From contig JAHBMJ010005762.1 in the NCBI GenBank assembly GCA_018398765.1, forward strand, positions 1 to 45,369: a stretch of DNA of 45,369 bases, in the 5' to 3' direction. Numbering within the stretch: the first letter of the stretch is position 1; each line of letters starts with the position of its first letter. The stretch is from Chromera velia (taxonomy: Eukaryota; Sar; Chromeraceae). Below, one piece after another: positions 40-35,200 of this stretch. The position numbers were made by a program, and so were the translations under genes. Under the pieces are notes generated by a model. It made no database searches. It was given only the letters and a program-made list of their open reading frames with translations, and was not told where the DNA came from.

Positions 40-1448
40 CTTCGGGGCAAAGACTTTCTCGAATCGTTTCTTCGACTGCTCGCGCAGAGGGCCGTCTTCA
101 AGGACACCTGCAGCGTGGAAGATGCCGATAGGCCCCTTCGCTCCCGAGGCTGCGGTCTTCAAAATAAACTCACAGCTCTCGAGATTCGAAACGTCGCCCT
201 TTACGATTTCGAGTTTCAGGTGAGCGTCAGACATCGACGCCTTCGCCAAGCGGGTGTACGCAGGTGTTGCTGCCGTCTCTGGATCAACGGAGCCTCTCCG
301 AGAGACCAGAAGGATCCGCTTTGCACCCTCATCAAGCAGCCAGTTGGCCACCACCAGCCCCAGACCTCCCAGACCCCCCGTGACGATGTACGTCGCACCT
401 TCCCTCGACACGTCCTCGGGGGCGTGTGTCTGGATGCTGCTGGGAATGGAAATCACCACCTTTCCGATGTGCTGGGCCCGCTGCATGAACCGGAACGCAG
501 CCAGACCGTTCCGCTGAGGGTCCGGCGATGCGATATCGAAAACCTCTTGTGGGAGAGGCTGCACAAGGGACTTCTCCCCGAGGGTTCGGATTCTGTCGAG
601 CATGTCTGCGAACCATTCGGGGGTCTCCTCGATCATGTGATCCACAGCAATAGTCTCGTAGTAGACGTCTGGGCGCTCCTCCTTCATCTTCTCCTTCGTC
701 CAGATACCTCGCTTGCCCAACTCCATAAAGCGACCCTTCGGACCCATCAGAGACACAGACACGTCGATGAACTTGTCGATCAGGGAGTTCAATACGACGT
801 CGATCTTTTTGCCGTCGAGGAACGCAGCCATGTCTGCTTCGAACTTCGATGCGTCACGAGAGCTGGTCACGTACTCCATGCCCAAGCTCTTCACGAACTC
901 CTTCTTCCTGTCACTGCCCACAGTGCCGTACATGATCGCCCCGACTCTCTTGCAGTACTGAATGGCAGCAATTCCGACACCACCGGAGGCAGCGTGGATC
1001 AGCACGCGATCTCCCTTCTTCACCTTCGCAAGGTCATGGAAGGCATACTCGACCGTACCGAACACCACAGGCAGCGCTGACGCCTGTTCAAAGGTCATGT
1101 TCTTCGGCTTTCGGCCGATCATGTGCTGGTCGGTGAGTGCGAAGGTCTTGAGGCACCCCGGAGCAACACCATAGACCTCCTCTCCCACCGTCACGCGAGA
1201 GACCCCAGGTCCAACACGGACAACAGTTCCGGAGAAGTCACCACCAGGAGGGCCTGCGGTCAGTCAGTCAGTAAGGGAGTGAGTGAGTCAGTAAATCAAG
1301 AAGGACACCGGATGGAAAACCTGGTGAAATGGAGGCAGCCAGCAGGCGGGGGAAAGAAGCGAAAAGGCAAAAGACTTCACGTACACCGCAACATGTTTTT
1401 GGATCTAGCAGCAAAGAAATTGAAAGTAGCGAAGAAAAGGCGAGCAAG

Positions 1449-1490
<42 letters not shown>

Positions 1491-4400
1491 CGCACCAACA
1501 CACACACACTCGCACCGACACACACACTCACACACAAAGCACTTCTTCACAACGACCGACCAGGGTCTCCCGGGTAGAGTCCCATCACGTTGAGGACGTC
1601 ACGGAAGTTGAGTCCGATTGCTCTCACTCGCACCTCAACCGCACCCTCTGGCACCTCAGCCCTCGCTCCCTCGGCATCCACCAATGACTGCGGTCGGAGC
1701 TTCAAATTTGAAATCGCGCCCCTGTCTCTCATGTGTAGCTCCACAGGACCCTTGCAGACCGTAGAGCTCTTTGCCAGACGGGGTGCAAAGACGCGGTCAC
1801 CTCTGACAGCCAACTCAAAATCAACCGGGTTCACTGCCTCACAGAGCTTGAGGGCTGCCTTTAGGCCTTCTGCGGGTTGCTTCGACGGGTCAATGTCGAG
1901 AGAGCCCACAGGCACTCGGGCACCAAAGACACCTTGCAGGTCTAAGCGCGCTGCTCTGACCAGGCCTGCCAGCCCTGCCTGAACAGGGGGGGAAGCAGTA
2001 GGCGTCTCTGCAGTGCCACTTCCCTCTCCAGACGACAGCGGAAGCTGCTGGCACCCCCTAGTCACAACCCGCACTGCCGGTCTCTTCTTCCCTTTCGGCC
2101 AGTCCTCGGAGCCAAGAGCTTGGAGAACTGCCGCAGCCTCCCACGCAATACTGACAGCAGCCTCTGGATCAGAGGACCCCTTTCCGATACCCCCCAAGTA
2201 GACGACTTCCTTCCACTCCTTCTCGGAGAGAAGTGCAATCAGGGCAGCCCCAGATGGCACCGATCCTGCTTGCTTGACTACTGCAGGGGAAGAGCCAGTG
2301 GTGCGTGCAAAGGCATCTGCAGCAGTGGGGGGCACAGCGAGGAGAAGGGTGGACGCGCTCTCCTGCGGCAAAAGAACAGAGACAGGGGTGCCTTTCCCTT
2401 CGCCGGCGACCCCTTCTGTAGACTTGGATGAAATTTCCTGAGGCCGCCAGACGACAGACCAAAGAAGTTCTCTCGGGATATCAGCGGGTCTCGAAAGCTC
2501 CATCTGTCTCAGAGACACACCGAAGAACTCAACCACAGTGGTGCCATCTGAGTTGAAAATGCGCACGTCAATCGAGGCACTCGTGGCGCTCTTCGACACA
2601 GTCTTCACGTGAGCCCAAAGCGGATGACGCTGCTCCTGGTTCTTCACCTCAATCCGACCCAACACCGCTCGCTCCACACCCACAGGGACGAGAGCATTTT
2701 TCGGTTTTTCTTCGGCAAGGAGAACCGCAGAGGACTGCAGTGCTCCGTCCAGCACCGCCGGGTGGACTCGGAAAGCACTATCGACTTCAAAAAAGTACGC
2801 ATTGAGACCGGACTCCTCCTCGCGAGGGGGGGCGACTGCGAGACGTGCAAGAGCCTCGTCCTTCCTCTGCCCTAGGCCCCGGAACAGAGACTTGACTGTC
2901 TGGAAACGTCGACCATACTGAAGTCCCAACTCCCCGACGCCTGCGTAGAAGCGAGACACGTCAACCGCCTCCCCTCCCTCGCTAAAAGCTTTCTGGAGCG
3001 CCTCCAAGTCTTCGGAGGGCTTCTCGAAATTTCCGGCAAGAGTCACGCTGCATCTTGCGTGGATCTCATTGGCGTCGTCGCCCACCGCATTCAGATTGCT
3101 GGAAGACAGAGTGACGTCACTAGACCCCCCACCTGGAGGTTGGGAGATCGTGACTGTCATTCGACGGGCGTTCCGATCGGACACAGAGTCCAGTCCTGCC
3201 GAAGCAGGAAGAAGCAAAGGACGCTCAATCTCCAAGTCCGTCAGTGCAATGGGGGGCGACTTCCCTTGAACGGTCGAGACTTCCCAACGGTCCCGCTCGG
3301 CCTCTGCACACGCCGCCATGGTCTCAATGAATGCCGCTCCCGGGACCACGACTCTCTTCAACACCCTGTGATCGTCGATGAGACGGTGAACGTCCTTTCT
3401 GATCACCGTCTCGTAACTCGCACCGCCTCCCTCCTCCTCGCGTCTCCGTCCAACCATTGGGTGACTGATGATTGAAAACGGGAAAGTCTGGTGTCTCCAT
3501 GAGACAGCGTCAGCGTCTGCAGCGCTCTGCACGATCCTCAGAGCCTTGCCGAACTCATCCTCGTCCGTCACTCCGGTGGCAGATGCGATCCAAGTCACCT
3601 TGGGAGGTCGTCCCTTGGTGTCCTGTTGCGCTGCACCAATGCATGTTTTTCCCAAATTCGACAGAGTCGCCGTGGGGCCTAGCTCAACCACCATACGGCA
3701 CTCCAGGGTTTCCACGACCGTACGAATTGCTTCAACAAAACGCACAGGGCTGACAATTTGAGAAGCCCAGTGGGAGGGGTCGACAGCAGCGGAGCCGTCA
3801 AGGACGTCACCTGTTCGCGTGGACACAAAAACAGTTTCCGTCGAGGCCTGTTGGAAAGGCGACGCTGCTACTATGCCCTGGAAGGTTTCGACCATGGAAG
3901 ACATCAGAGGAGAGTGGAAGGCATGAGATACCGTCAGCAGCTTGAAGCGGTCAGGGGTTCCGAGCTGAGCAAACACGGCCTCGACACCCTTTCGAGGACC
4001 TGACACGACCACAGACTTGGGGCCGTTGATTGCAGCCACTGCCACCTTTGACATCAACTCTGCTGCCGTCCCCCCTGACTTCTGCACAGCGGCAATAGCC
4101 TCCAACACTTGATCCTCGCTCAACCGACATGCGGCCATCACACCGTCATTTGCAGGCGTGTCCTGCATCAGCTGCGCCCTTCTGGCGACCAACTGCAGCC
4201 CGTCCTCGAGGGACATCACTCCACAGGCAGTCGCAGCAGCGTACTCGCCAAGAGAGTGTCCCATGACGACATCCGGCTCAACGCCCTTCGACTTCCACAG
4301 CTCAAGGAGCGCAACTTCCACACAGTAAAGGGTCAGCTGGGAGTAGAATGTCTGGTTGATAAGAACTTTTGCCTCTGCCTCCTCTTCCTTCTCTGAAGGG

Positions 4401-7400
4401 TACAAAAGCTTCGCCAACGGCATGCGGGAAAGACGGCGCTCTGCCACCAGTGCATCGCACCGATCGATCACCTTGCGGAAGACTGGTTCTTCTTTGTACA
4501 GGCGCACGCACATGTTCACGTACTGAGACCCTTGTCCTGTGAAGATGAAGGCAGTCTTCTGTTTGCGGCTCCGAGGAGATTCGCTGGTGACAGGAATAAT
4601 GGCGTCGCCCTCCTGCACGATGACGTGCGCGTTGGCGCCGCCAAAACCGAACGAAGAAACTGCACCCACAAGCTTTCTGCGCTTCTTCGCACCCCCGATC
4701 TCCGTCGGCTCTGTCGGGAAGACCACGGGGAAACCCTCGATGTCGATGTGCGGGTTCAGCTCCTTGAAGTGCAGGTTCGGTGGTGCAGTGCGCTGCTGCA
4801 AGACCAGGACCAGTTTCAAGAAACCGGCAATACCTGCAGCCCCTTCCAAATGGCCGAAGTTCGTCTTCACCGTACCGAGGACCACGGGGTTTTCTGGGTC
4901 TCTTCCAGGTCCGTACACCGCCTTCAGGGCACCCACCTCGATCGGGTCACCCAGCGCCGTGCCCGTGCCGTGCGCCTCAATGTAGCACACGTCGGAGGGC
5001 TTCAATCCGCCAGCGCGAAGAGCTGAGCGAATCACCTCCTGCTGCGAGGGCCCGTTGGGTGCCGTGAGGGATGCGGAGCGGCCGTCGTGGTTGACTGCCG
5101 AGCCGCGAATGAGGGCGAAGACCGACTCCTTCTGAGCGCGGGCCGCCGATTCAGGTCGAAGAATCACGACACCAACTCCCTCTCCACGGGCGTAGCCATT
5201 CGCGGCGGCATCGAATGTCTTGCACCTGCAGTCGGGTGAAAGCATCCGGGCCTTGGAAAGCACAATGAGCGTCTGCGGAGCGAGGATGATGTTCACTCCT
5301 CCCGCAATTGCCAAGCCCGACACTCCTGCTTTCAGCTTTTCCACGGCACCATCCATGGCAACGAGGGAGGAAGAGCACGCGGTGTCGATGGTCATCGAGG
5401 GACCTTTCAACCCGTAAACATATGAAATACGGTTCGAAATAATCGACAAGGAGCCGCCTGTGCCGGAAAGGGGACCGGAGCTTTTGGAAACTGCGGACAG
5501 AATATTCCAGTCAGTCGTGCAGCATCCAATGTACACTGCAGAGTCGGAATTCTGCAAGTCAGCCTGCTCAATGCGTGCGTGCGTCAGGGCTTCCTGTGTC
5601 ACTTCAAGGAGATGACGTTGTTGCGGGTCCATGTATTTCACCTCACTGGCCGAGACCGAGAAGAAAGCGTTGTCGAACTCCTCGAGCCGATCGATGCACG
5701 CTATTTCACGCACGTATGTTGCCCCCTGTGCATCCGGATCGGCTTCGAAGATCCCTTCGTTGCCCCAACGAGAGAGAGGAATCTCAGTGAAGCAATCAGT
5801 CCGCCTCATGAGCATTTCCCAGAGAGATCTGGGACCTCGGCTCCTTCCGGGCAGGCGACAGGAGAGACCGATCACAGCTACCGACTCGACACGATCCCCT
5901 CCAACACGTGCCTTTGGTACTGCGGTCTTTGCAGCGTCTTTGTTGCTTCCCTGAATTTGCCCGACAATGAAGCCAATGATCGCGTTGATCGTCGGGTAGT
6001 CAAAGAGGGTCGTTGCAGGGAGCCGCACGCCCAATTTGGAGGACAGAGCATTTCGGAATTCGACTGCCCCCAGAGAATCGATCCCCAATTCTTGCAGAGG
6101 GGCATCCATGGAGGGGAGATCTGAAGTGTCGAGAACCTGCGCAGCTGCCTCGAGGACTGTCGCTTTGACGAACTCTTGAAGCTCGTCTGTGTTCATTGAC
6201 CGAAGCTTCAGTTGAAGATCTCGAGAAACAGACGCAGAGCTTCCTGTTTCAATCTTGCTAAAGAAGGGAGGGACCTTTTCATATCGTTGGAGGAACACCT
6301 TCCACTTCAACTCCTGGCAGCCCACCACGGTTGGAGGGGGGAGGGAAGGCTTGGTGTTCTTCTTCTCGGCCTCCGCGTCCGTTCCCGGTTCAGCCGCCCG
6401 CAGAGAGAGACGCATGAGGTCACCCAGGACCCGCAGGCCCAGATCATTCGAGATGCCTCCCATCCCGACCTTCTCGAGGTACTGGGTGAAGTCCTTTGCC
6501 ATCCCCTGCTCCACCCAGGGACCCCACTGGATGCTCAGGGCCGGCATATTCTTCTCCCTGCGGTACACGGCAAGAGCGTCCAGACAGGCATTCGCGGCAG
6601 CGTAGTTGCTCTGTCCGAAGTTGCCCAGAAGGGCGGAGGCGGAGGAGAAGAGAACGAAGTTATCCAGATCCAGGCCGAGCTCGACACTCAGTTCATGAAG
6701 GTGCCAGGCTCCATCAACCTGCATCAGGGCAGAAGGACGTGATAGATGAAAGAAAAGGCACATGCCACACAAGGGGGGGGAGAAACAATGAGCACACGTG
6801 CATGCCAGGATACTTCGGCTGGTTTGCGACCCTTTCTGCATCGGTTGAAAGGGTATGCGGCTCGAAAAACTCTTGCTTTTCGTAAAGGCAGAAAGGGTGA
6901 CTCACAAGAGAGTGGACACATTCATTCGTCTGTATTGCAGCCTTCCTTCATTCGTTTGCTTTGCTTCGATTCCCGGCAATTCAGCTGCATCCTGCTGACC
7001 TTTGCCTGATAGACGGGGAAGATTTTGTCGATGCCCTGGTTGCCAATCGCAGCGTCTGCAAGGACACCTGCAGCGTGAATGATGCCCGTCAGCCTGTTGT
7101 TGTGAGAGAGCTGAACAGCCTTCGTCAGCATCTCCTGACAGGCTGCCTTGTTGGAGACATCGCAGGAAATGAGAATCGTCTCAACCCCTGCCGCCTTTGC
7201 GCTCTGAAGACGCTGCCAGAGTGGATGAGTCTGCGTATCTGCAGGAACGGAACCTCTCCGAGAGACCAGAAGGATCCGCTTTGCACCCTCATCAAGCAGC
7301 CAGTTGGCCACCACCAGCCCCAGACCTCCCAGACCCCCCGTGACGAGGTACGTCGCACCTTCCCTCGACACGTCCTCGGGGGCGTGTGTCTGGATGCTGC

Positions 7401-10400
7401 TGGGAATGGAAATCACCACCTTTCCGATGTGCTGGGCCCGCTGCATGAACCGGAACGCAGCCAGACCGTTCCGAGACGCGTCAGTCGCGGTCATATCAAA
7501 GATCGACAGTGGAAGGGACTGAATCGTTGACGCTTCCGCAAGAGACGACACTCGTCTCATCAAAGCTCCAAACCACTTAGGATCGTCCTCGAGAAGGTGG
7601 TCGAGAGCGATGGTCTCGTAGTAGACGTCTGGGCGCTCCTCCTTCATCTTCTCCTTCGACCAGATACCTCGCTTGCCCAACTCCATAAAGCGACCCTTCG
7701 GACCCATCAGAGACACAGACACGTCGATGAACTTGTCGATCAGGGAGTTCAATACGACGTCGATCTTTTTGCCGTCGAGGAACGCAGCCATGTCTGCTTC
7801 GAACTTCGATGCGTCACGAGAGCTGGTCACGTACTCCATGCCCATGCTCTTCACGAACTCCTTCTTCCTGTCACTGCCCACAGTGCCGTACATGATCGCC
7901 CCGACTCTCTTGCAGTACTGAATGGCAGCAATTCCGACACCACCGGAGGCAGCGTGCATCAGCACGCGATCTCCCTTCTTCACCTTCGCAAGGTCATGGA
8001 AGGCATACTCGACCGTACCGAACACCACAGGCAGCGCTGACGCCTGTTCAAAGGTCATGTTCTTCGGTTTCTTCGCGAGGAGTCTGGAGTCGGTCACGAC
8101 GAACGACTTCAGGGACCCGGGAGCCACCCCCATCACGCTGTCTCCAATGCTGAACCCCTCAACCCTCTTCCCCACAGCGGTGATGATTCCAGCGCAGTCA
8201 CCACCAGGAGGCCCTGCAAGCAGAGGTCGAGTAAGAGAGAGAGAGAAAAGACGGGGTTGAGGCACCCACTTGACACAGATCAGGGCTTTGTTTCGGCCTG
8301 TTCGAGTGACAACACTAAGCGACATGTTGACGATCTTTTTTTCTCCACCCAAAACGAATAACGACGTTCTCAGAACAGCTCAGATCGAGACTTAAAGCAA
8401 AAAGAAATACCAAGCCCATCTCAGACACCGGCTCCAGAGTCCACAGCACACACAAAAAAGGAAAGTGAGCCTGCATACACTCACACACAGAGCACTTCTC
8501 CACAACGACCGACCAGGGTCTCCCGGGTAGAGTCCCATCACGTTGAGGACGTCACGGAAGTTGAGCCCAATTGCTCTCACTCGCACCTCGACCGCACCCT
8601 CTGGCACCTGCGTCCTCTGTTCCTGGAGATTCTGAGGTCGAAGCTTCAAATTTGAAATCGCGCCTCTCTCTGTCATCCGGAGCTCGACTGCACCCGCACA
8701 GGTGGTCGAACTCTTCTGCAGTCTGCTCACGTACACAGCCTCGTCTCGAATGGCCAGTTCAGGCTCGTACTGCCCGCTTGCCCCTTTTCCCCGAATCCAT
8801 CGGAGGAATACGTCAAGCTGGGGAGCTGCAGCCGTGTCTGCCTGGAGGTCCACGCAACCAAACTGAACCTCAGATCCTGCGGCATTCGACAATTCCAGAC
8901 GGGCAGTCCGTGCAAAGCCCCAGACACCAGCGTGCTTAGGTTTCTCATTCAGTCCGTCGGCGTCAGTCACCTTCCGACACCCGCGAGTGAAAACCCAAAC
9001 CGCAGGCGGCTTGCTTCCCGCCGATGCAATTTTGCCGACGGTTTTGGCGACCTGCAGAAAGAGTCGAAGGAGAGAAAAGAAAGAAAAGCGTCCAGAAGAA
9101 TCTTCATGAAAAAATGTTAAACGACAGAGAGAACGAAAGACCGACATCCGGAAAAGAAAAATTCCCTTTTCACCATCCTGACTGAGACAGAGAGCGCAAG
9201 TGACGAGAGAAACCCACTTTTCAATGCAAGTGACCCCTTCAAACCCCCACCGTCTTCCTTCCCTTTCTGTCAACCCAACCACAGACAGACCTGGACAAGC
9301 TCAGCGATGGCGTCAACAACGTCGTCCTCCTCAGAGGAGGCTGCGCGCATACAGATGATTGCCTCGCAACTCGGCTGCTTGCCCAAAAGAGTTGTCAGCT
9401 GCTCTCCACGGGGAGATGCCGGAGAGATCTCGGGGACGTACGTATTCGTCCTTCCCCATGCCTGCTCGACATCCAACTGGAGTTCTGCCGGGATGGCACA
9501 AAGGAGGAGATCCGATGCATGTTCCCGAGGTTCGACTGCCGGGGTCACAGGTTCGCTCCCGGCTCTTCCCTCTGGCACGGCCTCTCCCCCAGCCCTCTCC
9601 CACACGGTCTCCCAGAGCAGATCTCTCGGGATTTCTGCGGGAACAGACAGTTCCATCTGTCGCAGAGAGACGTTCTCGAGATGGCATGCAACTCGACCGC
9701 TGTCAGTCAACAGGGAAACGTCAATGCTTGCTGCCGTTGCTCCACGGGACCTGAGGCGAACATGAGCCCAAACCTCCTCTGTAGCCATGCACGTGCCCAT
9801 TAGTGCCTCCTCAACTTGCACAGGCACCATTGGCTTCCTGGACCCCCTTCCTCCCTCCTCGAGAAGAACGACTGCCGACTGGAAGGCACCGTCGAGCAGG
9901 GCTGGGTGGACGCGGAAGAAAGGATCACAGTCAGACACACAGGACAGCTCGAGGCGAACCATGAGCTCATCCTGCCCCCGGAAGGCCTGCCTGATAGTCT
10001 GGAATCGGGGACCGTAGTCCAGCCCTACAGATCGGAGACCTTCATAGATCTTCGAACCTGCGACTTCATCAGGACACCGCTTTCGAATGGTTGCCACGTC
10101 AACAGGCTCCATCGCCTCATCGACGCCTGAAAGCGCACCCGCTCTCTTCGGTCTGTGAGTGGCAGAGCAATGGAAGTCCTCTGTCTCCCCCCCTCCAGAG
10201 TTTGAGAGCACTGACATTTGACCGTCAGGGGTGATCTCGACTGTCACACGGACTCGAGAGTCGGCTCCAGCAGCTGTGTTTTCCGGAATCATCAGCGGTC
10301 TCTCGATGCTGATCTCTTCGAGTACCACCACCTCACCTTCACCACCAGGCTTCTCGCCCTCACCACTGCTCAGAGAAGCCGCGCAGGCACCCAGAAGCTC

Positions 10401-13400
10401 CACAAAAGCAGCCCCAGGGAGCACAGCCTTCTTGAGCACAACGTGGTCCTCCATCAGCTCGGACACATCCTTGCGAAGGAGGAAAGAGAATCTCTCTCCC
10501 CCATCATCCGAAGTCCCTCTCCGTCCCTTCATGGGATGCGAAGGCTTTGTCCAGGGGTATCGTTTCTGCATGAGGTCCATCCCTGACGCAGGCGTAGAGC
10601 TGCGGGCAACACTCGTGGTGAGCTTCTCCAGCACAGCAGCAAACGTCTCCGAAGAGTTTCTCTCGTAGTCCATCGAGGCCAGCCTGCAGTCAGTCAGTCA
10701 GTCATAAACGGGGGGGGAAAAGTGAAAAAGTCAAATAATGCACTTATCTGGGAGAAATAGAGATCGAGCCGGACATCTGCTAGGGTGAAGAGGACACGAA
10801 AAGCTCAATGCCAGAGTCAGCTGAGGGCAGACGAAAAGAAAAAAGTCAATTCGCGCAAGGGAATCCATCCCCCTGGTTGACTCACCAGACGATATTTGGC
10901 GCATTCACGCACTGTTTGCCCAGAGCAAGCAGCAGAGGTCGCGGGCCGATCTCGAGGACCAGCCGGCAGCCAAGGCGTGCCACGTGCTGAATGCCGTCAG
11001 CAAATCGTACCGGCTGGACGATATGCTTCGCCCAGTAGCTCGCCTCCGTCACCTCCTGCTCGACCTCTCCACCCGTAACTGTGGAGATGAATCGGATGTG
11101 GTTTCTTGGGGGTTGGAGCGCGATCTGCTGGACCACCCTGCTGTAAGGTTCCTCTGTGGCTGCCATAAGAGGAGAATGGAAGGCATGAGACACCGCAAGG
11201 AATTTGGCACGTGTGTGCACGTCGAGTCTCTTCAAAACCCTTTCGACGGCTGGTCTCGGACCCGACACGACGACACTCTTGGGCCCGTTGATAGCGGCCA
11301 CTGCGACAAGCGGAAGCAGCGCGTCGTCAGGATCCTCCTTCTGGAGGGCCCGCACAGCGGAGAGAACCTGCTCTTCTGTCGAACGAATAGCAGCCATCAC
11401 GCCATCACGAGAGGGGGTGTCGTGCATCAGCCGGGCTCTCCGAGCTACCAGCGTGAGAGCGTCAGCGAAGGACATCACGCCAGCCGCGACTGCAGCGACA
11501 TACTCTCCAAGAGAGTGCCCCATGACGACATCCGGCTGGACACCCTTCGACTTCCACAGTTCCGTCAGAGCGTACTCAATGCAGAACAACACCGGCTGGC
11601 TGATCAGGGTCTCGTTGATCAAGTCCTCCATCTCCCCTCTGTTCTCAGGCGACGGGTAGAGAATCTCTTGGAGGCTGAATGGCAACAGCTTCCTTTCGGA
11701 GAGAATCTCAGCGCACCTGCGGGCGGGCATGTACACAATTCAGCAAATTGGAAGGTACCTCAACTCAATTCAGCATATTGGAAGGCACGTAGCTCAACTG
11801 ACACTTTTCTGACAGAGCCCCAAAACAGCGGTGCATGCCCCCAAGAACACTTCAAGAGAAATTTGAAACCTGTTTCGTATCTTTCGGACGAAGGGCCGAC
11901 AACCAAAAAGGAAAGCTTGAGATCATTATGACACGTCAGGCTGCAGCTACGAAGCACGAGAAAAAAATCCACTCCCCTTTTTTCACGCACCCCATCTCAC
12001 TAGCTCACTGACCTATCGATGCTTGCCCGAAAGACCGGTTGGGACTGGTAGAGCTCTTTCCCCATGCCAACATACTGGGACCCCTGTCCAGTGAAGACAA
12101 AAGCCACCCGCACCTTTCCGGGTCCGCTTGGACAGATGGACATAGTCCGGGGAGTGGTTTCCTTTGGCAATTCCGTTTCGGACTCTGCCGCCTCCACAAC
12201 AACGTGGGCGTTGGCGCCGCCAAAACCGAACGAGGACACGGCACCGAGGAGACGGCGCCTTCGCTGCCCCCCGATTTTCGTGGGTTCTGTTGGGAACACG
12301 ACAGGGAAGTCCTCGATGTCAATGTGGGGGTTCAGAGACTGGAAGTGAAGATTGGGGGGGGAACACCGGGCTTGCAGGACCAGCACCAACTTGATAAACC
12401 CTGCAATCCCCGCTGCTCCCTCCAAATGTCCGATGTTGGTCTTCAGGCACCCGATCACGAGAGGGTCCTGGGCGTCGCGCCCTTGAGCGTACACAGCCTT
12501 GAGAGCGCCCATTTCAATTGGGTCGCCCAGACTCGTTCCTGTGCCGTGAGCCTCAACATAGCAGACCTCTGAGGGTTTCACGGAAGCTTTTGACAGAGCC
12601 AGGCGCACAACTTCCTGCTGTGCGGGACCGTTCGGAGCGGTGAGGGAAGCCGAACGACCATCGTGATTCACACCTGTGCCACGAACAGTTGCAAGCACCC
12701 GCGCTCCCTCCTTCTCTGCTTCGTGGGCTCGCATCAAAACCACAGCTCCAGCTCCCTCCCCCCTTCCGTAACCATCCGCACCAGCGTCAAAGGTCTTGCA
12801 TCGGCAGTCGGGAGAGAGCATGCGAGCCTTCGCAAACGCAATGAAGGCATGAGGGGTGAGCATCAAGTGAACCCCCCCCACAAGAGCAAACGAAAGACCT
12901 TCTGCCCTCATTTTCTCAAACCCGACATCCATCGCGACAAGCGAAGACGAGCAGGCTGTATCAACAGTCAGCGACGCACCCTTGAGGCCGAACACGTACG
13001 AGATTCGGTTCGACAAAATCGATGCTGAGTTTCCTGTCCCTGAGAAAGCCGACGACTGGGTGTTCTCGAGGAAGCTCCAGTCATGATTCCCGCACCCCAC
13101 GAAGCACCCCATATCGACCCCGTTCAGGCCCTCCCGAGAGAACCCCGCATTCTCCAAAGCGAGCCATGACACTGTCATCAGCAGGCGCTGCTGAGGGTCC
13201 ATGAACTTCACCTCTGTGGGGGAGATGTTGAAGAACGAACAGTCGAAGAGATCTGCGTCAACAATAAACCCCCCGTCTCGAGCGTACGTAAATCCGGGTG
13301 CGTCAGGGTCCGGGTCGTACACCTCGTCCAGGCACCAACGGTCGAGCGGGACCTCTCGCATGCAGTCCGTTTTTGTCATCATCATCTGCCAGAAGGCGCC

Positions 13401-16400: not shown

Positions 16401-17194
16401 AAGACTCTTCTCGTAGTCAACACCCTCCAGCAGACCCCCGAACAGAACAGAGTCCCAAGCGGTCCCGGCGGAGCTCTGCTGACGGAGGGCCCGCTCCATG
16501 CTGTCCTTGGAGCTGCTTGCACTCGAGCACTGCACAGAGAGAGAAAGGGAGACACGTACACGCTCGGCTTTGGAGAGTGACCAGACATACAGACTGACTC
16601 CACGCCTGCATCCCCTCTCTGCCTTCGGTGAGGGAAGTCAGGTTGACGTAGACAAAGAAAAGAGATATCCGCGAGCCTGAAGTACTGCACAGGTTGAAGT
16701 AGAAAAGGACCTCTCCGACGAAAAAAAGACACAGCGGATAAAGCATGCGTCACAGAGACGGGAAAAAAGAAAAAAACGAAGCCTATCACAAAAAAAGCAG
16801 AAGCCTGAAAGCGGACCTGCAGAGCCAGGCCCCGTTGCTGCAGTGCAACTTCCACACTCTCAGCAAACCCCTGGGGAAAGTCGACGAAAAGGCACTTGAG
16901 CCCACCGCTCTCTCCTCGTCGAGCCCCCTCCTCAGGACCTTCGAGGGGGGCCCATTCGACATGCCAGATCAGGTCTCTTGGGATTTCCGCTTGCCGGGCC
17001 CTCTCCATCTTCCTCACTCTCAGATTGAGCAACTCCACCAGAATGGCACCCTCACCGTCAAAGACCTCCACGTCAATGCTTGCAGTGTCAGCAGTGCGAC
17101 TCAAAAGATGAACATGCGCAAATATCTGCATGCACACAAACATACACACAGCAGAAGCTGAATCCCTCTGAAAAATGCAGGGGCAGAGGCAGAG

Positions 17195-17258
<64 letters not shown>

Positions 17259-23200: not shown

Positions 23201-26200
23201 ATCGACAACTGATAAAGGAGCCTGTGCAAACAGTCCCTCTTCGACAATAACAGACAGAAGGATAGGAGTGGAGGCCTCAGATCTTCCGCAAAGTTCCGTC
23301 ATTGCTTCCACAAGCCTCTCTGCCTCAGCCGAGTCGCTGCATCCGAAGACGACGACACCAACGTGCAGCTCCTCAGTGATCCATTTCCTAACCGTCTCCG
23401 TGGTGGTTGCTGAGAGAGATGCCGACGGACTTCGTACAAAAGACCCCGGCCGGAGGGATCGAGTGCACGCTGCCATCATGGCCTCGGAGGGAGACACGAA
23501 CAGCCACCTGGTCTGACGGTCATCCCCAGCAGCCTGCACTGGAAGCTTCACCCACTCGACGGACGACAGAGACAGCTCTGCACGCACTTCCTCCTCCCGT
23601 GCATGCATGCCGTCTCCAGAGAAGTTAGTGAAGAACGAAGGGGTCTCATCGTAGCGACGGAGGAACTTAGAGACCTCCAGTGGTTGACAGCACACAACCG
23701 AGAGGTCGCTGTCCGCCCCTCGGAGGGCATCGCCTAGAGCCCTCAGACCGATCTCGTTGGTGATCCCCCCGAATCCTACCTTGAACAGCTGGTCCTTCAA
23801 TGCCGCAGCCTTGCCCTGCTCGATCCAGGTTCCCCACTGGATAGAAGAACCCGGCATCCCACACGCTCTTCTGTAGAGGGCAAAAGAGTCAAGGAACGTG
23901 TTCGCAGCCGAGTGGTTGGTCTGTCCGAAGTTACCGAAGAAACCAGCGACGGAGGAAAACAGAGTGAAGAAATCTAACGGGTCCTGTCTCTCTAGTGTGG
24001 CAAAGTGCAGATTCAATGTTGCCTGCACCTTCGAATCGAAAACTTTCTGGTAGTCCTCCGAAGTCAACGAGAGGAGAGCACCGTCGGAGAGGACACCAGC
24101 AGACTGAATCACCCCCCCCACAGGTCCCACCTCTCTCGCCACCGATGCAAGCAACACATCGCACTGTGAGCGGACGGATGGATCGCACTTACGAGTGACG
24201 ACCTTGATACATGAGCTCAACTGGGAGCCAGTGAGACGTGCGACAAATTCGCCATCCTTCACGTCCTCTGCAAAATTTCCCGAACGTGAGACCAGGACAA
24301 TCTTCTTCACTCCGTGATCAATCAACCAGTTGGACACCACAACTCCTACCCCACCCAGACCACCAATGACTACCACAGCCTTTTCGGGAGACACAGGAAC
24401 GGGAGAGGGAACGGAGACGACAACCTTCCCGATATGCTGAGCCCGCTGCATATGTCTAAAAGCTGCGAGTGCGTCTTTTTGTGCATCTGAGGAGTGGAGG
24501 TCGAAGAGGTCCATCGGGAGAGGGCGAATCTCTCTCCTCTCTGCTCTCTTCACGATTCGTTCGAGCATCTCCCCGAGCCACTGCGGCTTGTCCTTGATCA
24601 TCTGGTCGACTTCAATCACCTCATACTGAACGTCGGGTCGGGCAGATCGCATACGCTCGTACGTCCAGATACCTCGATCAGCCTTTCCGAGTTCCATAAA
24701 TCGGCCTTCTGGGGCCAGCAACTCGACTGAGTAGTCGATGTACTTATTGATCAAGCAGTTCAGAACCACATCGACTTTCTCACCCTTCAGGTAGGCCTTC
24801 GCGTCCGAGAGGAATTTGTCAGGATCGCGAGAACTGGTCACAAACTCGACACCCAGGCTCTTCACGAAATCCTTCTTCCTCTCGCTCCCCACAGTGCCCA
24901 GGGGAATTGCACCCACACGCTGACAATACTGGATCGCCGCAATTCCAACACCGCCGGATGCTGCATGGATCAGCACTCGGTCCCCCTTCCTGATTTTGGC
25001 CAGGTCGACGAGGGCATGCTCCACAGTCGCAAAGACGATCGGGAGTGCTGCTGCTTCTTCAAAGCTCATGTTGCGTGGCTTTGCACAAAGCAGCTGGGCG
25101 TTCGTCGTCACATACGTCTTCAGGCACCCCGCAGCGACACCGAACACGTCGTCACCAACCCGGAAGTCCGACACACCGGGTCCGATGGCGACTACGGTAC
25201 CCGCGCAGTCGCCCCCTGGTGGCAGATCTGAAGGAGGGAAAGAGAAAAAGGGGGGACATTTCAGCATTGGCAAGGCCCTAAGTCAGACTACTCAAACGTA
25301 CGCGTGAAGGATGCGCTGAGCGACCCAGGACAGAATCGGCCATCCAGGGAGGCGTGAATTGAGGAAGGAAGTCACGTAAGGAAACAAAGAAAAGAAGACT
25401 CCCATCAAAAAAGGAACAGAACGGCCGCAGTCAGTAAGTCAGTCAGTGTGTCAGACGATGATTCAGTCCCACCACCCACTGACCAGTCTCAAGCAACCCC
25501 ATGACGTTGAGAACGTCTCGAAAGTTCAACCCGATGCCGCGAATACGAACTTCCACCTGTCCTGTTCCAGGCGCTGTGCGTTCAGTCGACGTCTGAGGTC
25601 GCACAGAGAGGTTCGACAACGAGCCTTTCGAGCTCAAATGAAGGAAGAGATCGCCTTGAAGATCCCCCCCCCCAGATGCTTTCGCGAGTCGGCACCCGAA
25701 CGCACGCCCTTGACGCAGCCCGATCTGGGCCTCGCCCTTCAGACTCTTTTCCTTCTTCGATGCTGATGATCCTTCACTTTCGGTCACCAGCAGCTGAGCA
25801 ATTTGGGAGGCGAGCCGCGCTGCAGCACCCCCAGAATCCGGCAGATCACACACGCGCACAGCCGTCATGCCGGAAGCCTCCAAGGCAGCTGACCGAGCAA
25901 ACCCCCAAAGAACGGCTGAATGGGGACACGACGTCACCCGATCAGATGGAATCACGATTTGCGTCGACTCGGTGAACAGCCAGAAGGCTGCAGGGGCACG
26001 GTCGAGTTGCCCAGCCTGTTTGCAGAATCGCATCACCGCTTGCAACGTGCACAGTGCCTTTGTGGCAACTTCCAAGGCATCAGCCCCCTCGACCAATCCG
26101 TGAAGGAAGATTACTGCCTTTGTCTTTGCCTGACCGAGAACCTCCTCGAGATGGGTATCATCCGGGCCGACATCCTCCACGTGCGCACACCCTGCACTGC

Positions 26201-29200
26201 CCGAAAGAACCTCTAGGAGGGGACCAGCCACTTCCCACGGCCCGACCACAACGTACCGCCCCTCCGCACGGCCTCTGGAAAGAGGAAGGAGAGGACGGAG
26301 AGGTACCCACTCAGTCTGCCACAGAGACGCATCGGGAGCGATCTCAGGGGATGCACCCTGAAGGGCCTCTTTCTTCAGCTGTCGCAGCCGCAGCCCCTTC
26401 ACAGAGGCGACAAGCTTCCCCTCCCCAGCAAACACCCGCACGTCGACCGTCACAGTCACAGACGACCCTGTCTGTTTCAAAGGTTCTGCCACCTTCGCGT
26501 GTGCCCACACTGTCGTCTGCTTGTCGACCTGAGAAAGCTGTACCTCCTCAATCGCGAAGGGCACCAACGCACTTCCATCGGTGACCACGACTGCACAGGC
26601 AGAAGTCTGAAAGCAGCCGTCGAGGACTGCCGGGTGAAGGGAGAAGAACCGATCTTGATCGAGGTGGAGGGCTTGACCGTCAAGTCGGGCAAGCGCCTCC
26701 CCGTCTCCCTTCCAAGCCTCCTTGACGGTCTGAAACCGAGGTCCGTACTGGAGACCCGCGGCCCTCAGCTGACCGTAGAGAAGTTCAAGAGAGACAAGGG
26801 CGTTGCACCTCTCCTTGGCGTCTCTCAATTCAGCGGCGTCCTCCACACCGACCCCCATCTGCACCCCTGCCCTGACGGTACCCGACACATGCACTCTTCT
26901 GGCCTGGAGACTGCCGTTCTGTCGGGGTTGGGACGCGACTTCGAAGGCCCCGCTTTCGGGATCGACGCGGACGCTCAGCAAGGGTCTCTCGTCAACAGGA
27001 AGCTCCCTCTGGAGAATCAACGGAGCTTCGAAGCCCACGTTTCGGCACACCACGGGGCGCCTGTGCTGACTCGCCCAGAAGTTCTCGTTTTCTTTCAGCT
27101 GGACATACCGCGCGCTCGCAGCAGCAGCTTCCAAATATCCGGTTGCAGGCCACACGATGCGGTCGGCAATCTGGTGGTCCTCGAAGATCTCCGCAATGTT
27201 GTCAGTGATGGGCGTCTCAAAGAGGCGATTGTTGCCCTCAAAAGGCGAAATCTCACGAACTGCCAGAGGGTGTCTCAGCTCGGCCCAGGGGAAGCTCCGG
27301 ACAGGGCCCCTATTTGGCAGAAGGCCCGTCCCCCGGAAGGTCCGCTCACCGGCCTCCTCTCCCTGCGAACGGTTCGCCCCAATGTTTTCCAACGCAGCGG
27401 ACACTTTACCGAAGTGAGCTGCCTGCCCATCAACCTTGTCACTCGCGATGCATGCCAGCCAAGTCAGCTCACTCTCTCCCGGTGACACCACACACTGCTT
27501 GCCCATCGAGGAAAGCACGGCCTTTGGACCCACCTCCACAAACGTTGTCACTCCTTCTGCCTGAGCTGCCTTCACGGCCTGGTCAAACAAAACCCCCCGC
27601 GTGATGTGATCTGCCCAGTAGCGGGGGTCTGTAAGCTCTGTTGAGGCCTCAGCTCCGAGGACAGTGGAGACGAAAGTGATGTCTCTGCGGGGGGCAGCAA
27701 GGGGCACTGTGGAGACCGTCTTTGCGAGTGGGTCGACGGCGGGTTCCATCAGTTTGGAGTGGAAACCGTGGGAGACAGCCAGCTGGCGTGAGGACGACAG
27801 AGAAACCCCCAGCTTGTCAAGGACACGGTGGACTGCAGGCTTGGCTCCTGACAAAACGACGCTGCGGGGACCGTTGGCTGCTGCGACCGACGCGGGTCCT
27901 TCCAACTCTCCCGAGGCCTCCAGGGCTCGGATGGCTGAATCTGCCTCGTCAAAGGACTTGCGACAGGCAATCATCACACCCTCCCCAGCAGGACACGCGT
28001 CCATCAGTTTGGCACGTTCGATGATCACGCGCATGCCGTCGAGAGGAGACATCACCCCGGAGACACACGCTGCGACGTACTCTCCAAGAGAATGGCCAGC
28101 AACGACATCGGGTGTCACCCCCTTCGACTTCAGGAGAGACGCGAGAGCCCACTCCACAGCGAAAATACTGGGTTGCGCAAACACCGTCTGATCGATGGAT
28201 TTGCCAGACTCCTTCACTGCCGTGTTCGCGGGCGTTCCTCCGTCATACCCGAGGAGGGTCAGCAAAGAAACCCCCAGTCCGTGTTTCGCAACCTCGTCGC
28301 ATTGGAGGAACGCCTCGCGATAGGCAGGCTCGGTCTCAAACAACTCCTTCCCCATCGCAACGTACTGAGACCCCTGTCCAGTGAACAGGAAGGCCACCTT
28401 CTCCCTCTCTGCAGTGGCCGCCGTCGCCGCAGCCTCGTCATTCTCTTCGTCCACCCCCTCCACTTCCCCTGAGACACAGAGAGGACTGCCGTCTCTGTCG
28501 AGCGCCTCCTGCACGATGACGTGCGAGTTCGTCCCCCCAAACCCAAAGGATGAGACACCTGCCACCAGGGCCTTACCAGAGGGGTTGAAGAGATCTAGAG
28601 GTCTGCCAACTGCAGGAAAAACCAGGCCGTCCTCAAATCCAGAGAGGTCGATGAAGCTGTTCAAGGACTTGAAGTGAACCAACGGTGGCGCTTGTCGATG
28701 AGACACAGCCATGACTGCACGAATGAGCCCCGCAATCCCCGCTGCTCCCTCCAGATGTCCTATGTGCGTCTTCACAGAGGACATCACGATCGGGTTATCT
28801 TTTCCCCTTTGTGTGTTTCTGAAAGCCTCTTTGATAGCATGGACCTCAATCGGGTCCCCCAGTGCTGTCCCTGTGCCGTGAGCCTCAATGTAGTTCACAT
28901 CTCCAGGGCCCAACCCTGAGTCCTCCAGAGCCCTCAGGATCACCTCCGTCTGGCGGGGCCCACTCGGGGCCGTGAGGGAAGCGGAACGGCCGTCCTGATT
29001 CACTGCAGAGCCAAGGAGACGTGCGAACATCTTCTCACCATCCCCCTCAGAAGAGGAAGAACCTGGGGAAGCGAGCTTGATCACAATCGCGCCAACCCCT
29101 TCTCCCCTTGTATACCCACTCGCAGCGTTGTCGAAAGTGGCGCACCTTCCCTCTTCTGAGAGCATCCCTGCTTTGCAGAAGACGACAAAGGGAAGAGGAG

Positions 29201-32200
29201 ACAGCAAAAGCTGGACACCGCCAACCAATGCCGTTTGGCACTTTCCTGCCCGCAGGTGATTAAGTGCCACGTCCGTAGCCACCAGAGAGGATGAGCACGC
29301 GGTATCGATTGCAATCGACGGCCCCTGGAATCCGTACACGTACGAGATGCGGTTCGGAATAATCGACGCAGCTGTGCTCGTGCCTGAATAGACGGAGGGG
29401 GCCTTCTCCCCCCGGTTGCTGAGAATCGACCAGTCCTCAGAGCAACACCCAATGTACACGCCGACTCCTGAGATGTCAATCTCCCCTCCCATGTTGGCCT
29501 GTGCACAGCCAAGAGCCTCATTGGCGACTTCCAGCATTACCCTCTGCCGTGGGTCCATGGAAGCCGCCTCAGCAGGAGGGATGCCGAAGGTCTCGTTGCG
29601 GAAGGCGTCCACTGAATCCATAAATCCCCCGCTTCGCACATACATTTTCTGTCCTCTCACATCACGATTCATGTCGAAAAATCGGTCAACGTCCCAACGC
29701 ATGTACGGCATCTCTGAGATGCAGTCTCTTCCGGAAAGACACATCTCCCAAAACCGACGGGCGCTTGTTGACCCCCCCGGAAATCGGCACGCAATTCCCA
29801 CAACGGCCGCACTCGTCGTTTCCCCTCCTCCTTGACTCTTGACCATCGACTTTGCCCGTACCTTCTCCCCCGTCAGCTGATCCGTCACGTATCCTATCAG
29901 AGCCCCCAGCGTCGGGTAGTCAAACACAACAGTGGTCGACAAGGAAACCCCAACTTTTCGTGAGAGCGTGTTTCGAAATTCGACCGCCCCGAGTGAGTCG
30001 ATTCCCAAGTCAGTCAGAGGAACGTCGAGACGAGGAGCCTCGGCGAATCCCAGAGCTTCTTGTGCAGTCTGGAGGACGATCCGTTCAACAAAAGCTCGGG
30101 CCTCTTCTGGTGACAGGCCGCGGAGTTCCTCTCGAAGGCCGGCACTGTCTCCGCCATCTCCCTCACCAACTTGGCTCACAGAGGCAAAAAGCGGGGGAAC
30201 CTCGGGGAACTGCCGAACGAATTTGCGGAAGTCAACGGGCTGTGCCGCGATGACTGAAGTCACGTCTGGTCGGATTGCGGACTCGAGAAGCCGCAGTCCG
30301 AGGTCGTTGGAGAGACCTGTAATTCCAGCTGCCTGAAATTTCTTCAAAATCTTCGGATCCTCCACCGCCATTCCCTGGTCAACCCATGCCCCCCACTGGA
30401 TCGAGACACTCGTACCTGGAGACCCGATCGCGCGCCTGTGCGCAATCAGGGCGTCGATCGCGCAGTTGGCAGCGCAATAGTTTGCCTGCGCGAAATTTCC
30501 GAACAGGGCGGCAATTGAGGAGAAACACACAAAGAACTCCAGCGGCCATCTCTCTGTTTCGGCAGCTGCGTGAAGCTTCCATGCCCCCACAGCCTTTGCT
30601 CTCCATGCAATTTCGAGACTCTGTAGACTCTGCTCTTGGAGACGAGCGTCAGCAAGGGCACCGGCAGCGTGCACCACGCCAACAACAGGTGGCATGCCGT
30701 TGGCCCGCAAAGCATTTGCAACCACCGGAGCGACAGCCTTCCCCCCCGCTTCTTCCGCAGCGCCCAAATCAAGGGAGGCGGCCTGCACGTTGCAGGTCCC
30801 AGAACGCAGAATTTCCCAACGAGGTCTCGACGCCTCGTCAGGAGTGACACGCCGACCGCAAAGAAGAATGTGTTGCACGCCCTCCTCTGCAAGCCATTGC
30901 GCTACCACAAGGCCGAGAGCCCCCAGCCCTCCAGTCACAACGACAGTCCCACCTGTGCAGGCAGGCGTGCCTACGGGGGAGGGGATCTGCACCACAACCT
31001 TCCCGATATGCTGGGCCTTCTGCATGAACCGGAAAGCCGCAATCGCATCAGTACTCGAGTCGTCTGAGGCCATATCAAAATTGCAGAGCGGCAGAGGCTG
31101 GATCTGCTTGTTGTCTGCAAGAGCTCGGATGGAATCTAAAACCCCCCCAAACCACCGTGGATCGTTTTCAACCATATGATCGAGGGCGATCGTTTCGTAG
31201 TAGACGTCTGGGCGCTCCTCCGTCATCTTCTCCTTCGTCCAGATACCTCGCTTGCCCAACTCCATAAATCGGCCGTTCGGGCCCAGCACTTCAAGCGATG
31301 CGGGGATGAAATCTTCGATCAAGCAATTCAACACCACATCGACCTGCCCACCCTCCAGAAACCGGGCCATGTCCGCGCGAAACACAGCAGCATCTCGGGA
31401 ACTGGTAACTGCGGACACCCCAACTTCTTCCCGCAGGAACGACTGCTTCTTCTCGGAGCCCGCTGTGCAGAAGGGGATCGCACCAACTCGACGACAGTAC
31501 TGCAGAGCAGCCAGCCCGACACCCCCAGTGGCTGCGTGGATGAGAACCTTGTCGCCCCTCTGCACCTTCGCCATTTGACCAAAGGCAACCTCGACTGTTG
31601 CGAATACAGAGGGTAAAGCACTGCAGTCCTCAAAGGTCCATCCACCGGCGGGCATCTTTGCAAGCAGCGATGAGGCGGTGGTCACGTGCGACCGGAGGCA
31701 ACCAGCCGCCAAGCCATACACAAAATCACCGACGCGCAATCCCTGTACCCCCGCACCGACGGCACTCACAACACCCGCGCAGTCACCTCCGGGGGCGCCT
31801 GCAGGAAAAGAAAGGAGATAGACGTTAACTTTGCTGAGTGTTGCTCCTGAAGAAGGACCGCCTCACCCGAGTGTGAACAGAGAGAGAAAAGGACCGCAGT
31901 CGTGCAGTTTGTTTTCTTATTTTTTCTCAGACAGATGCACTCGCAATTACGCCCCCTTTTTTGAAAGACAGCGAAATAGACGCACTACACCGCAGACAGA
32001 GAAAGAAAGGGGGAACGAAAACAAAAGACAGACAGACAGGAAGGCAAACAGGTGGGTGGATAGACAGGTGGATAGCGGGACAGGCGGACAGACAGACTGC
32101 ATGGTTCATACAGGCAGACACACTTCATGTTTCTTCTTTTCCCTTCTTTTCTTCATGTACAGGCAGGCAGGCAGGCAGACAGAGACAGAGACAGAGACAG

Positions 32201-32204
32201 AGAC

Positions 32205-32241
<37 letters not shown>

Positions 32242-35200
32242 AGACGATACCAGTCTTTTGCTTTCCCGTCCCTTCTATTCACGGACAGACCGTGTGGCTC
32301 TCTGTGAGTCCATCTATGCTTTTCTTTCGTGCGTCTTCTCCTTGTCTCTGTGCCTCAATTTGTTTGTTTGTCTGTTTGTTGGTCGGCCTCTTTGTGTGGA
32401 AAGGAAAGGAAAGGAAAGGTGAGACGGAAACCGAAAGCACCGTGAAGTCTTCCTTCCACACAGAGAAAAAAGAAAACAAAAAAAAATGAAGTGCATGTAT
32501 CCGTCAGACTGCCTGTCTGTCCGTTGTATGGGTGAAAAGAAAAGAGCGGGAAAAAAAGAAATACGCAGTCTGCCACCCACCCACCCACACACTCACTCAC
32601 ACACACACAGACAGAGAGAGAGNNNNNNNNNNNNNNNNNNNNNNNNNNNNNNNNNNNNNNNNNNNNNNNNNNNNNNNNNNNNNNNNNNNNNNNNNNNNNN
32701 NNNNNNNNNNNNNNNNNNNNNNNNNNNNNNNNNNNNNNNNNNNNNNNNNNNNNNNNNNNNNNNNNNNNNNNNNNNNNNNNNNNNNNNNNNNNNNNNNNNN
32801 NNNNNNNNNNNNNNNNNNNNNNNNNNNNNNNNNNNNNNNNNNNNNNNNNNNNNNNNNNNNNNNNNNNNNNNNNNNNNNNNNNNNNNNNNNNNNNNNNNNN
32901 NNNNNNNNGGGGGGGGGGGGGTGAGGGGAAAGGAAGAGAAGGAAAAATGCAGAGGGGGAGGGCGTTAGGGAGAGATTGTTCTACCGAGGGAAGAGGGGAA
33001 GGAGGCCGGGCGAGGTGCTCTTTCGTTCACACAATCGAAAAAACGAGTGAAGGAGGTGTGAACGCAGAGAACGGCACACGTGATTTGTTGCAAGGGACGC
33101 AGCAGGTGTGGGAGAAGCAAAAGAGAGAAGAAGCAAACTGACCAGGGTCACCGGGGTACAGATCCATCACGTTGAGCACATCCCGAAAATTGAGTCCAAC
33201 TGCACGGACGCGCAGTTCCACCTGTCCCTCACCTGGGGCCTCCCGTTCCTGCAGATGGAGGTGCTTCAGAGAGAGGTTCGAGATTGCACCCCGCTCGGAC
33301 ATGTGGAGCTCTAAAGGGCCCTTCACTGGCACCTTGGAAGGCGCAGCGCGTGCAAAGAAGATGCCGTCACCCCTGACTGCAATCTCTGGTTCTTCACAGG
33401 ACCGGAGGGTAGCAAGGACCCCCCAGAGCTGAGTGACCGTTTCAACATCAACTGTGCCAAACATGATGTTCCGCCCCATCTGGGCCGCCAGCTCCGTGCG
33501 AGCACTGCGGGCAAGACCCAAGAGGCCTGCATGGATGGGAGGAGAACTGAGACTGGCCACATCGTCAGGACTGATCGACAGGACGCCCGGGGTGACTACC
33601 CAGACCGCTGGGGGTGTCCAGTCACCCCTGCCCTCTCTCTCCCTTGATGCCAGAGCCTCGGCAAGACCTTGAGCAAGCTGCAGCGCCTCGTTAAGAATGG
33701 TGAGGGCTATGGTTTGAGCCTGCGCCGGGACTGTCGCGCTCCCTGCAGGGGGCGTCAGAGCACCACAGTATACCACGAGGGAATGGGAGGCCTCGCTGAG
33801 TTCTGCTGCGGAGGGAATGGACGAAGTCTGAAGCATTGGACTCCCGCCAACGGGAAGGGCCAACGTTGGATGGGGTTTCACGAAAAGAGTAGTACGTGAA
33901 GGGTCCACGGGGGCCGCTTCTTTCTCCTTCACCTCCAACGCCTCCCACTGGACTTCCCAAAAACATTCGCGGGGCACACGTGGGACGCGGGCGGCTCCCG
34001 CTCCTCTGCCCCCAATGGCACGCAGCTGCAGTCCCCGAAGCCATCCGAAAGCAGCTCCTGTCTGCTTATCGTACAGCGTCACGTCCACCCTTGCTGAGGA
34101 AGGCGCCCCCCCCTCCTTGGCTGTCTCTACGCTTGAGAGCTCAACGAGCGCAGAGAAGGAATCGTCGACAGAGGACCTCCCCACAACGAGCTGCTCAACC
34201 GAGGCGGGGATCAGAGCAGAACTGTTCCCAGCCCCAGCCGCTCCCTGCGCAGGAGTCATGTCCTTCAAAAGTGCAGCAGCTGCATGGAAGCAGCCGTCAA
34301 GAAGAGCGGGATGAACTCGGAACCCAGACTCAAAATCCTCTCCAACACCCCGGCCCCCGCTCCCTCCTCCCCCTTTGGACAGACTCACAACGCAGAACGC
34401 TGCCCGCTTTGCAGAATCGGTGTGGACGGTTTTGAGAGTGCGAAACCTCGGACCGTACTGGAGGCCGATCTTGTCCAACTCAGAGTACAGAGTTTCGACG
34501 CTCATGTCCATCGGGATGGGGCACTTCCCTTTGGCGTCTTCCACGCCCGCAGACCGCATCTGCAGCCCCACACTCATGCGTGACGCTGCCGCAGGAGCAA
34601 CCTGCTGTGCACGGACGTGAGCAACGAATTCAGCTCCGTCCGTATCTTTTTCGCTTTCCCGGACCTGGGCGGAAGACACCGCAAGAAGGCCGTCGTCTGC
34701 TGTCTCCACACGAACGAGAGTGGGGACTGCAGCTTGAGAATCGTCAGATGATGCGTCCAGCAAGAGGGGACGCTCGAATGTTACCGTTTCGAAGGCAGTG
34801 GTTGCCTCAGCGCTCTCCCCTGACAGACGGGTGCCTGCCGCGAGAAGCGCATCGAAGAACGCAGCCGCAGGGAGAAGCACAGAGCCCATAACGACGTGGT
34901 CCTTCATCAGTGCTGCGGCTTTGGTTGAAACCTTTTTCGGTAGGAAACCGGATTTGTCACTCAGCACCGGACCCAAAAGGGGGTGGGCTGCATCGACCCA
35001 CCGAAAGGGGCGGCGGGCGTAGGGGACAGGCAGGACCTCCAGCTGCTCCCTCTTGCAGGATGTGGGGGGGGACTCGAGCACTGCGTGTGAGTTTGCACCC
35101 CCAAATCCAAAAGAGGACACGCCACCCAGAAGAAGCTTCTTGGATGGTTGTTTGTCCTTTCGCTCTCCTGCCCCATCCCCCTCTCCCTCTTCATCTTCAT

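Follow-up and report, generated by a model that had tools for sequence, protein, structure and literature searches.

A recurrent ER intron in a giant polyketide synthase gene of Chromera velia: probable inheritance with duplicated modules, and exchange of ER-KR sequence in modules that lack it

Does an intron that recurs at one place in every module of a giant polyketide synthase (PKS) gene serve to shuffle the modules, or was it copied along with them? The question is raised by the first 45,369 bases (the window) of the 66,850-base contig C3834 of the Chromera velia assembly (177.8 Mb, 4,040 contigs). Pfam matches on the minus strand reveal one very large PKS/fatty acid synthase (FAS)-like gene, with an AMP-binding domain and an ACP followed by five modules of the order KS, (AT), DH, ER, KR and ACP; this repetition of KS, AT, DH, ER, KR and ACP in one gene identifies it as a multimodular type I PKS/FAS. 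The AT is missing from modules 1 and 3, and module 2 has an additional methyltransferase. The KS domains of modules 1 to 5 (W1 to W5) lie at 35073..36711, 28473..29825, 18627..19895, 12186..13448 and 4610..5884, respectively; these and all further features of the gene are on the minus strand. A rough count, which still includes unplaced introns at the 5' end, gives about 11,963 codons, and the gene is cut short by the contig end at base 1. The methyltransferase of module 2 (20243-25282) sits between KR and ACP, and the 681 aa from KR to methyltransferase and the 335 aa from methyltransferase to ACP show no Pfam match at E values up to 1. Upstream of the gene, a 516-aa open frame without a Pfam match lies on the opposite strand (41812-43362, plus). 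Genome-wide, there are 53 KS matches, each exon being counted separately, and 58 light-harvesting matches. Other contigs of the same assembly are referred to below by C-numbers.

Introns were placed by spliced protein-to-DNA alignment using paralogous open reading frames as queries (894 alignments over all contigs searched), independently of the gene model of an earlier note made from the window's sequence. Five ER introns are predicted in the window, each backed by 9 of 10 or 11 spanning alignments: 31799..33142 in module 1, 25228..25483 in module 2, 15560..15799 in module 3, 8214..8513 in module 4 and 1254..1560 in module 5. These are introns 6, 7, 12, 16 and 18 of the earlier note, whose limits of 1254 and 33142 correspond to the far ends of the outermost two. 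All five have a G|GT donor and an AG| acceptor and split the identical codon in phase 1, between ...GLYPGDP and (G)PPGGDCAG (with the variant flanks GLLET|DLPPGGDCAG in module 2), so that the claim of one shared site and phase was borne out for all five at the level of predicted splicing. Intron 6 holds a 286-base run of N (32623-32908), either an assembly gap or a withheld stretch, so its length is approximate; the run also accounts for the low GC reading there. Five separate insertions at one codon and in one phase are implausible, and shared descent is the natural reading. Flanking introns of a single phase (phase 1 in 5/5) are expected of exon-shuffled modules, but so is a position at a domain or module boundary, and the ER intron does not lie at one. 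The site is well inside the ER fold: the alignment with the CurK ER (5dp1) opens at residue 58 of CurK, at a point 26 residues ahead of the site.

The stretches from one ER intron to the next are circularly permuted modules, as the earlier note had stated. Exon 7 (25484..31798) is one module in a single exon of 6,315 nt without a stop codon, containing ER-C1, KR1, ACP1, KS2, AT2, DH2, 'psiKR'2 and ER-N2; its ER-C, KR, ACP, KS, AT and DH have Pfam matches. The name 'psiKR' comes from the earlier note and labels by position the stretch from DH to ER-N, where no Pfam match was found. The permuted modules were said to be exact, and this holds less firmly for the second interval: it has two more introns, near 17831-18152 and 16563-16855, that are only roughly placed, and we therefore infer its frame. 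These poorly placed introns, in DH (near 18 kb) and in psiKR (near 16.7 kb), were omitted from the comparisons. The frame arithmetic behind the proposal that intron recombination could add or remove modules without breaking the frame is sound. However, copying any unit that holds an intron automatically yields same-phase, circularly permuted intervals, and C819 has such cassettes at a phase-2 site. The pattern alone is thus no pointer to intron recombination, and we rejected the cassettes as proof of it.

To map the intron in related PKS genes had been suggested as a check. A protein search of the genome gave 36 matches, and the site was mapped in 24 ER domains, of which 12 have the intron, 10 lack it and 2 (C1216 and C1319) are unclassified. 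The intron-bearing domains are the five of the window, two in C3849 and one each in C2410, C2194, C1549, C3694 and C3391 (one residue off), and the intronless ones are two in C409, three in C781 (that at 40007 being classed from the protein search alone), three in C819 and one each in C727 and C2171. Weak matches in C2624, C2649, C2033, C3306 and C282 stand outside this count; the one in C2033, at 35% identity, crosses the site in one frame. Two degenerate ER domains in C3849 (about 310-1624 and 8033-9126) retain the phase-1 intron, the second having lost much of its ER-C, and the ER-N of C1549 is degenerate too. The same site with and without an intron in one genome provides a natural control for the shuffling hypothesis.

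As a control set we used six intronless modules, C409B, C819B, C819C and C819D of one gene (X, C409 plus C819) and C781B and C727 of another (Y, C781 plus C727), each gene being joined from two contigs by inference. C409 ends and C819 starts at the same place in KR, within a codon as judged against C819B, and their KR sequences are near-identical. Because end and start coincide, the two were treated as one gene, which they probably are; it was apparently within the homogenised ER-KR repeat that the assembly broke. Fourfold-site identity of ER-C was 73-89% within a gene (7/7 pairs) vs 38-48% between genes (8/8 pairs), with 48% and 40% for the same-position pairs between X and Y. The values for KR were 75-87% within (4 pairs) and 47-54% between genes (6 pairs). 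In both ER-C and KR, copies in one gene are thus closer at synonymous sites than same-position copies in the sister gene, which does not hold for DH, nor for KS save in C819B/C819C. Unlike ER-KR, the KS and DH proteins match by position between the genes. Same-position KS proteins are 90-95% identical across X and Y (C409A-C781A, C409B-C781B, C781C-C819C and C819D-C727), and 95% in both such pairs among the six modules, as against 56-67% for different positions in one gene where compared and 59-67% for the other pairs of the six modules, C819B-C819C (89%) excepted. KS is almost saturated at fourfold sites (53% and 46% for the same-position pairs; C819B/C819D 46%, C819C/C819D 47%), so it is protein identity that supports its positional orthology. 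Judged from these sequence comparisons, the ER-C/KR pattern is the signature of concerted evolution.

The homogenised block has distinct edges. The left edge is 73 columns before the ER site, where mean DNA identity rises from 51% to 94% (12 pairs). Between subgroups, identity is 58-76% over a conserved motif 178-118 columns before the site and 34-51% just past the motif. This edge lies within ER, at the conserved VEVR...NFRDV segment from which the CurK ER aligns, and not at the domain start. The right edge lies near the KR C-terminus, 64 columns before the KR-ACP intron, where identity drops from 88% to 24% (8 pairs); one later 15-column window is at 78%. Between these edges the block passes straight through the intron site. 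The left break, about 73 nt upstream, implies that both sides of the site share one recent history. The earlier note had expected phylogenies to break at the ER intron and had named ER halves of one history as evidence against its idea. Breaks inside ER do occur, but the clearest one lies upstream of the site, and the stretch around the site in these six modules has the single history that speaks against the proposal. C819B and C819C also have similar KS (80% at fourfold sites) and psiKR patches of 92-100% DNA identity, with DH proteins only 36% identical. Exchange is therefore not confined to ER-KR.

Domain trees were built for KS, DH, ER-C and KR from the 16 modules in which KS and ER-C are both present (15 for KR). 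The gap filter removed no row. Partial matches were never given rows, namely the second ER-C of C3849, the KR pieces from C409B and from the beginning of C727 and C819, the short KS pieces of C1782 and C2194, and the KS after the C2171 module; the tree tests were run without C3849A, C3849B, C2171, C781C and C1782. Intron state changes once on the ER-C and KR trees and twice on the KS and DH trees. In the KS tree, window module 1 groups with the first modules of C409 and C781 (99/98), and window module 5 with C2194, C2410 and C1549 (98/97). A single clade of intron-bearing rows is rejected for KS (AU p 0.004) and not for DH (p 0.12), the groups having been named after the trees were viewed, which makes all these p-values optimistic. 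The ER-C tree places the intron-bearing rows together on a branch of 93/91 that is not starred; with groups named in the same way, neither W1 with C409A and C781A (p 0.33) nor W5 with C2194, C2410 and C1549 (p 0.20) is rejected there. A break of history within ER is thus likely, though not proven, for the old modules of the window.

Exchange has also affected intron-bearing modules. Fourfold identity between W4 and W5 is 87% in ER-C and 85% in KR, vs 28% in KS and 24% in DH, and the two modules have three sharp, near-identical (~99%) patches in common. The first (8478..8603 in module 4, about 1526-1650 in module 5) comprises ~90 nt at the end of the ER-N exon, where 13-15 of 15 bases match per window, and ~30-45 nt of the intron, where 14 of 15 match over the first 30 nt before identity collapses. 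Identity stays low until 150 nt past the acceptor, the first 15 nt excepted. It is then ~99% for about 450 nt in ER-C (7613..8063, about 653-1103 in module 5) and, after a break, is renewed for 227 nt covering the ER end and KR start (7246..7472, ~99% to about 286-512 in module 5). Five of the six patch edges are in exons, and one is 30-45 nt inside the ER intron. The corresponding tract of C2410 and C1549 begins 135 nt past the acceptor, their introns and ER-N being unlike, and a similar block in the two C3849 modules (A and B) takes in the ER intron. Sharp-edged mosaic tracts of the kind left by gene conversion were thus found in W4/W5, in C2410/C1549 and among C819, C409, C781 and C727; short-read assembly of near-identical repeats could distort them. 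The tracts variously cross the ER intron, stop beside it or stop shortly inside it, and none was observed with the ER intron as its junction on both sides. In a comparison of the window with itself (low-complexity filter on), there were 27 DNA matches; the longest spanned 901 bases with 89.7% identity, and the second had 68.5%. None of the 27 ran from ER intron to ER intron or ended in introns on both sides, which homology blocks of exon-shuffled modules would be expected to do.

We consider it probable that the ER intron was inherited through module duplication and that ER-KR has undergone concerted evolution independently of the intron. The intron would be old, stemming from the common ancestor of these ER domains and copied at each module duplication, a copying step suggested by the shared intron sites; the in-frame permuted cassettes would follow automatically whenever a unit with an intron is duplicated. 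As a separate process, ectopic gene conversion that does not depend on introns may swap parts of modules between modules. Conversion is favoured over repeated crossover because the near-identical patches are short and sharp and lie in otherwise diverged modules. Its main substrate would be the block from inside ER to the KR end, which is homogenised within a gene while the KS and DH proteins keep their position-specific identity. ER-KR might tolerate exchange through generic chemistry, with KS and DH tuned to the position in the chain.

The idea of the earlier note, that whole permuted modules are gained, lost or swapped when homologous ER introns recombine, draws on the five phase-1 introns that bound in-frame modules, and the W4/W5 patch that extends a little way into the intron and stops there would also suit it. 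However, the window's self-comparison lacks intron-to-intron matches, ER-KR exchange is wider in the six intronless modules than in the window, and the common break lies upstream of the site. Moreover, with the site inside the fold, every such event would yield a chimeric ER. Since related modules without the intron exchange the neighbouring stretch as well, the intron looks inherited with the copied modules and not like the cause of exchange, and we regard intron-driven shuffling as improbable; ancient intron-mediated events may nevertheless have occurred. Alternatively, the intron could act in the opposite sense, as a barrier, with its diverged sequence halting conversion tracts and thereby sparing intron-bearing modules the homogenisation that sweeps across intronless ones. 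A hint of such hindrance comes from W4/W5 and C2410/C1549, whose tracts begin only after the intron; their fourfold identity is 47% and 17%, respectively, in the first 40 codons and 100% and 99% in codons 52-200, and the uninterrupted block in the six intronless modules points the same way. But these are two pairs only, the first W4/W5 patch spans the exon-intron boundary, the C3849 block includes the intron, and the first ~40 codons past the site are the more variable part in intronless modules as well. Furthermore, C409A and C781A lack the intron and are not homogenised with their neighbours (ER-C proteins 61% and 59% identical to those of their own B modules). A barrier is therefore rather unlikely, and we are equally doubtful of its extension, in which concerted evolution acts on ER-KR as its unit and the intron insulates the 5' part of ER, helping to decide which modules diverge. 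The ER protein is better conserved than DH, and stronger purifying selection without exchange might be invoked for the similarity of ER-KR. The same contrast appears at fourfold synonymous sites, however, and the sister gene's copies at the same position are no more similar, so that selection was rejected as the cause and appears very improbable.

With inheritance by duplication and intron-independent conversion as the preferred reading, the control argues that the stretch homogenised is the block from ER to the KR end and not an intron-bounded cassette. Without a control of this kind, conserved introns in tandem modules ought not to be taken for devices of shuffling.

The literature examined, which was available in part, says little about recombination in modular PKSs of eukaryotes. 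Algal multimodular type I PKSs arising by module duplication (Shelest et al. 2015, PMC4661987) likewise form giant eukaryotic genes of repeated related modules; as far as its text was accessible, that paper does not treat introns within modules or recombination points, and its main text contains neither 'recombination' nor 'Chromera'. In the accessible text on bacterial PKS/NRPS concerted evolution (Medema et al. 2014, PMC4256081), domains are likewise homogenised inside an assembly line by internal recombination, but these are KS/AT and C/A of bacterial clusters, in contrast to ER-KR of a eukaryotic gene. The same text has KS less freely converted than AT in some families, with an argument akin to the idea of generic reduction given above. 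Exchange at stretches of high homology is also described for bacterial PKS modules (PMC10661043, partial text); the hot spots named there are in KS, in AT and in the linker that precedes ACP, whereas the present edges fall within ER and close to where KR ends. GRINS (repeats of intense nucleotide skew), according to the part of PMC10394414 available, occur in amoeba and choanoflagellate PKSs too and resemble the present tracts in that about 1 kb of near-identical DNA is common to modules of one PKS. However, the tract skews here are below 25% (GC 0.147 and TA 0.115 in the module 4 tract), and no N-free 1-kb window along the analysed stretch has both GC and TA skew above 25% (TA alone reaches 0.32), so GRINS were rejected.

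The five modules and the size of the present gene agree with chromerid type I FAS/PKS enzymes, as given in the accessible parts of two papers. The longest C. velia enzyme has five modules and over 11,000 aa (PMC4501334), Cvel_12437 is listed as a type I FAS of 11,656 aa (PMC7464705), and one multi-modular C. velia enzyme has a methyltransferase. The word 'intron' does not occur in PMC7464705, and the accessible parts of PMC4501334 have no analysis of gene structure or module exchange for these enzymes. Among the matches listed in our literature search (titles and starts of abstracts, with most subscription journals outside its range), there was no study of module-recurrent introns or of ER-KR conversion in algal PKSs.

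The ER intron is not special, as further introns likewise recur module by module. An intron in the KR-ACP linker, in phase 2, occurs five times (three in C819 and one each in C781 and C727) and is absent from C819D. Module 1 has a phase-1 intron in KS (35531..35792, spliced alignment). A phase-0 intron in KR falls in one alignment column in window module 4 (6719..6999, spliced alignment), C1549, C2194 and C3849 (twice), and its donor alone is seen in C2410 and at the end of window module 5, where the intron starts with AAG|GTCCGT and runs off the contig (1..39).
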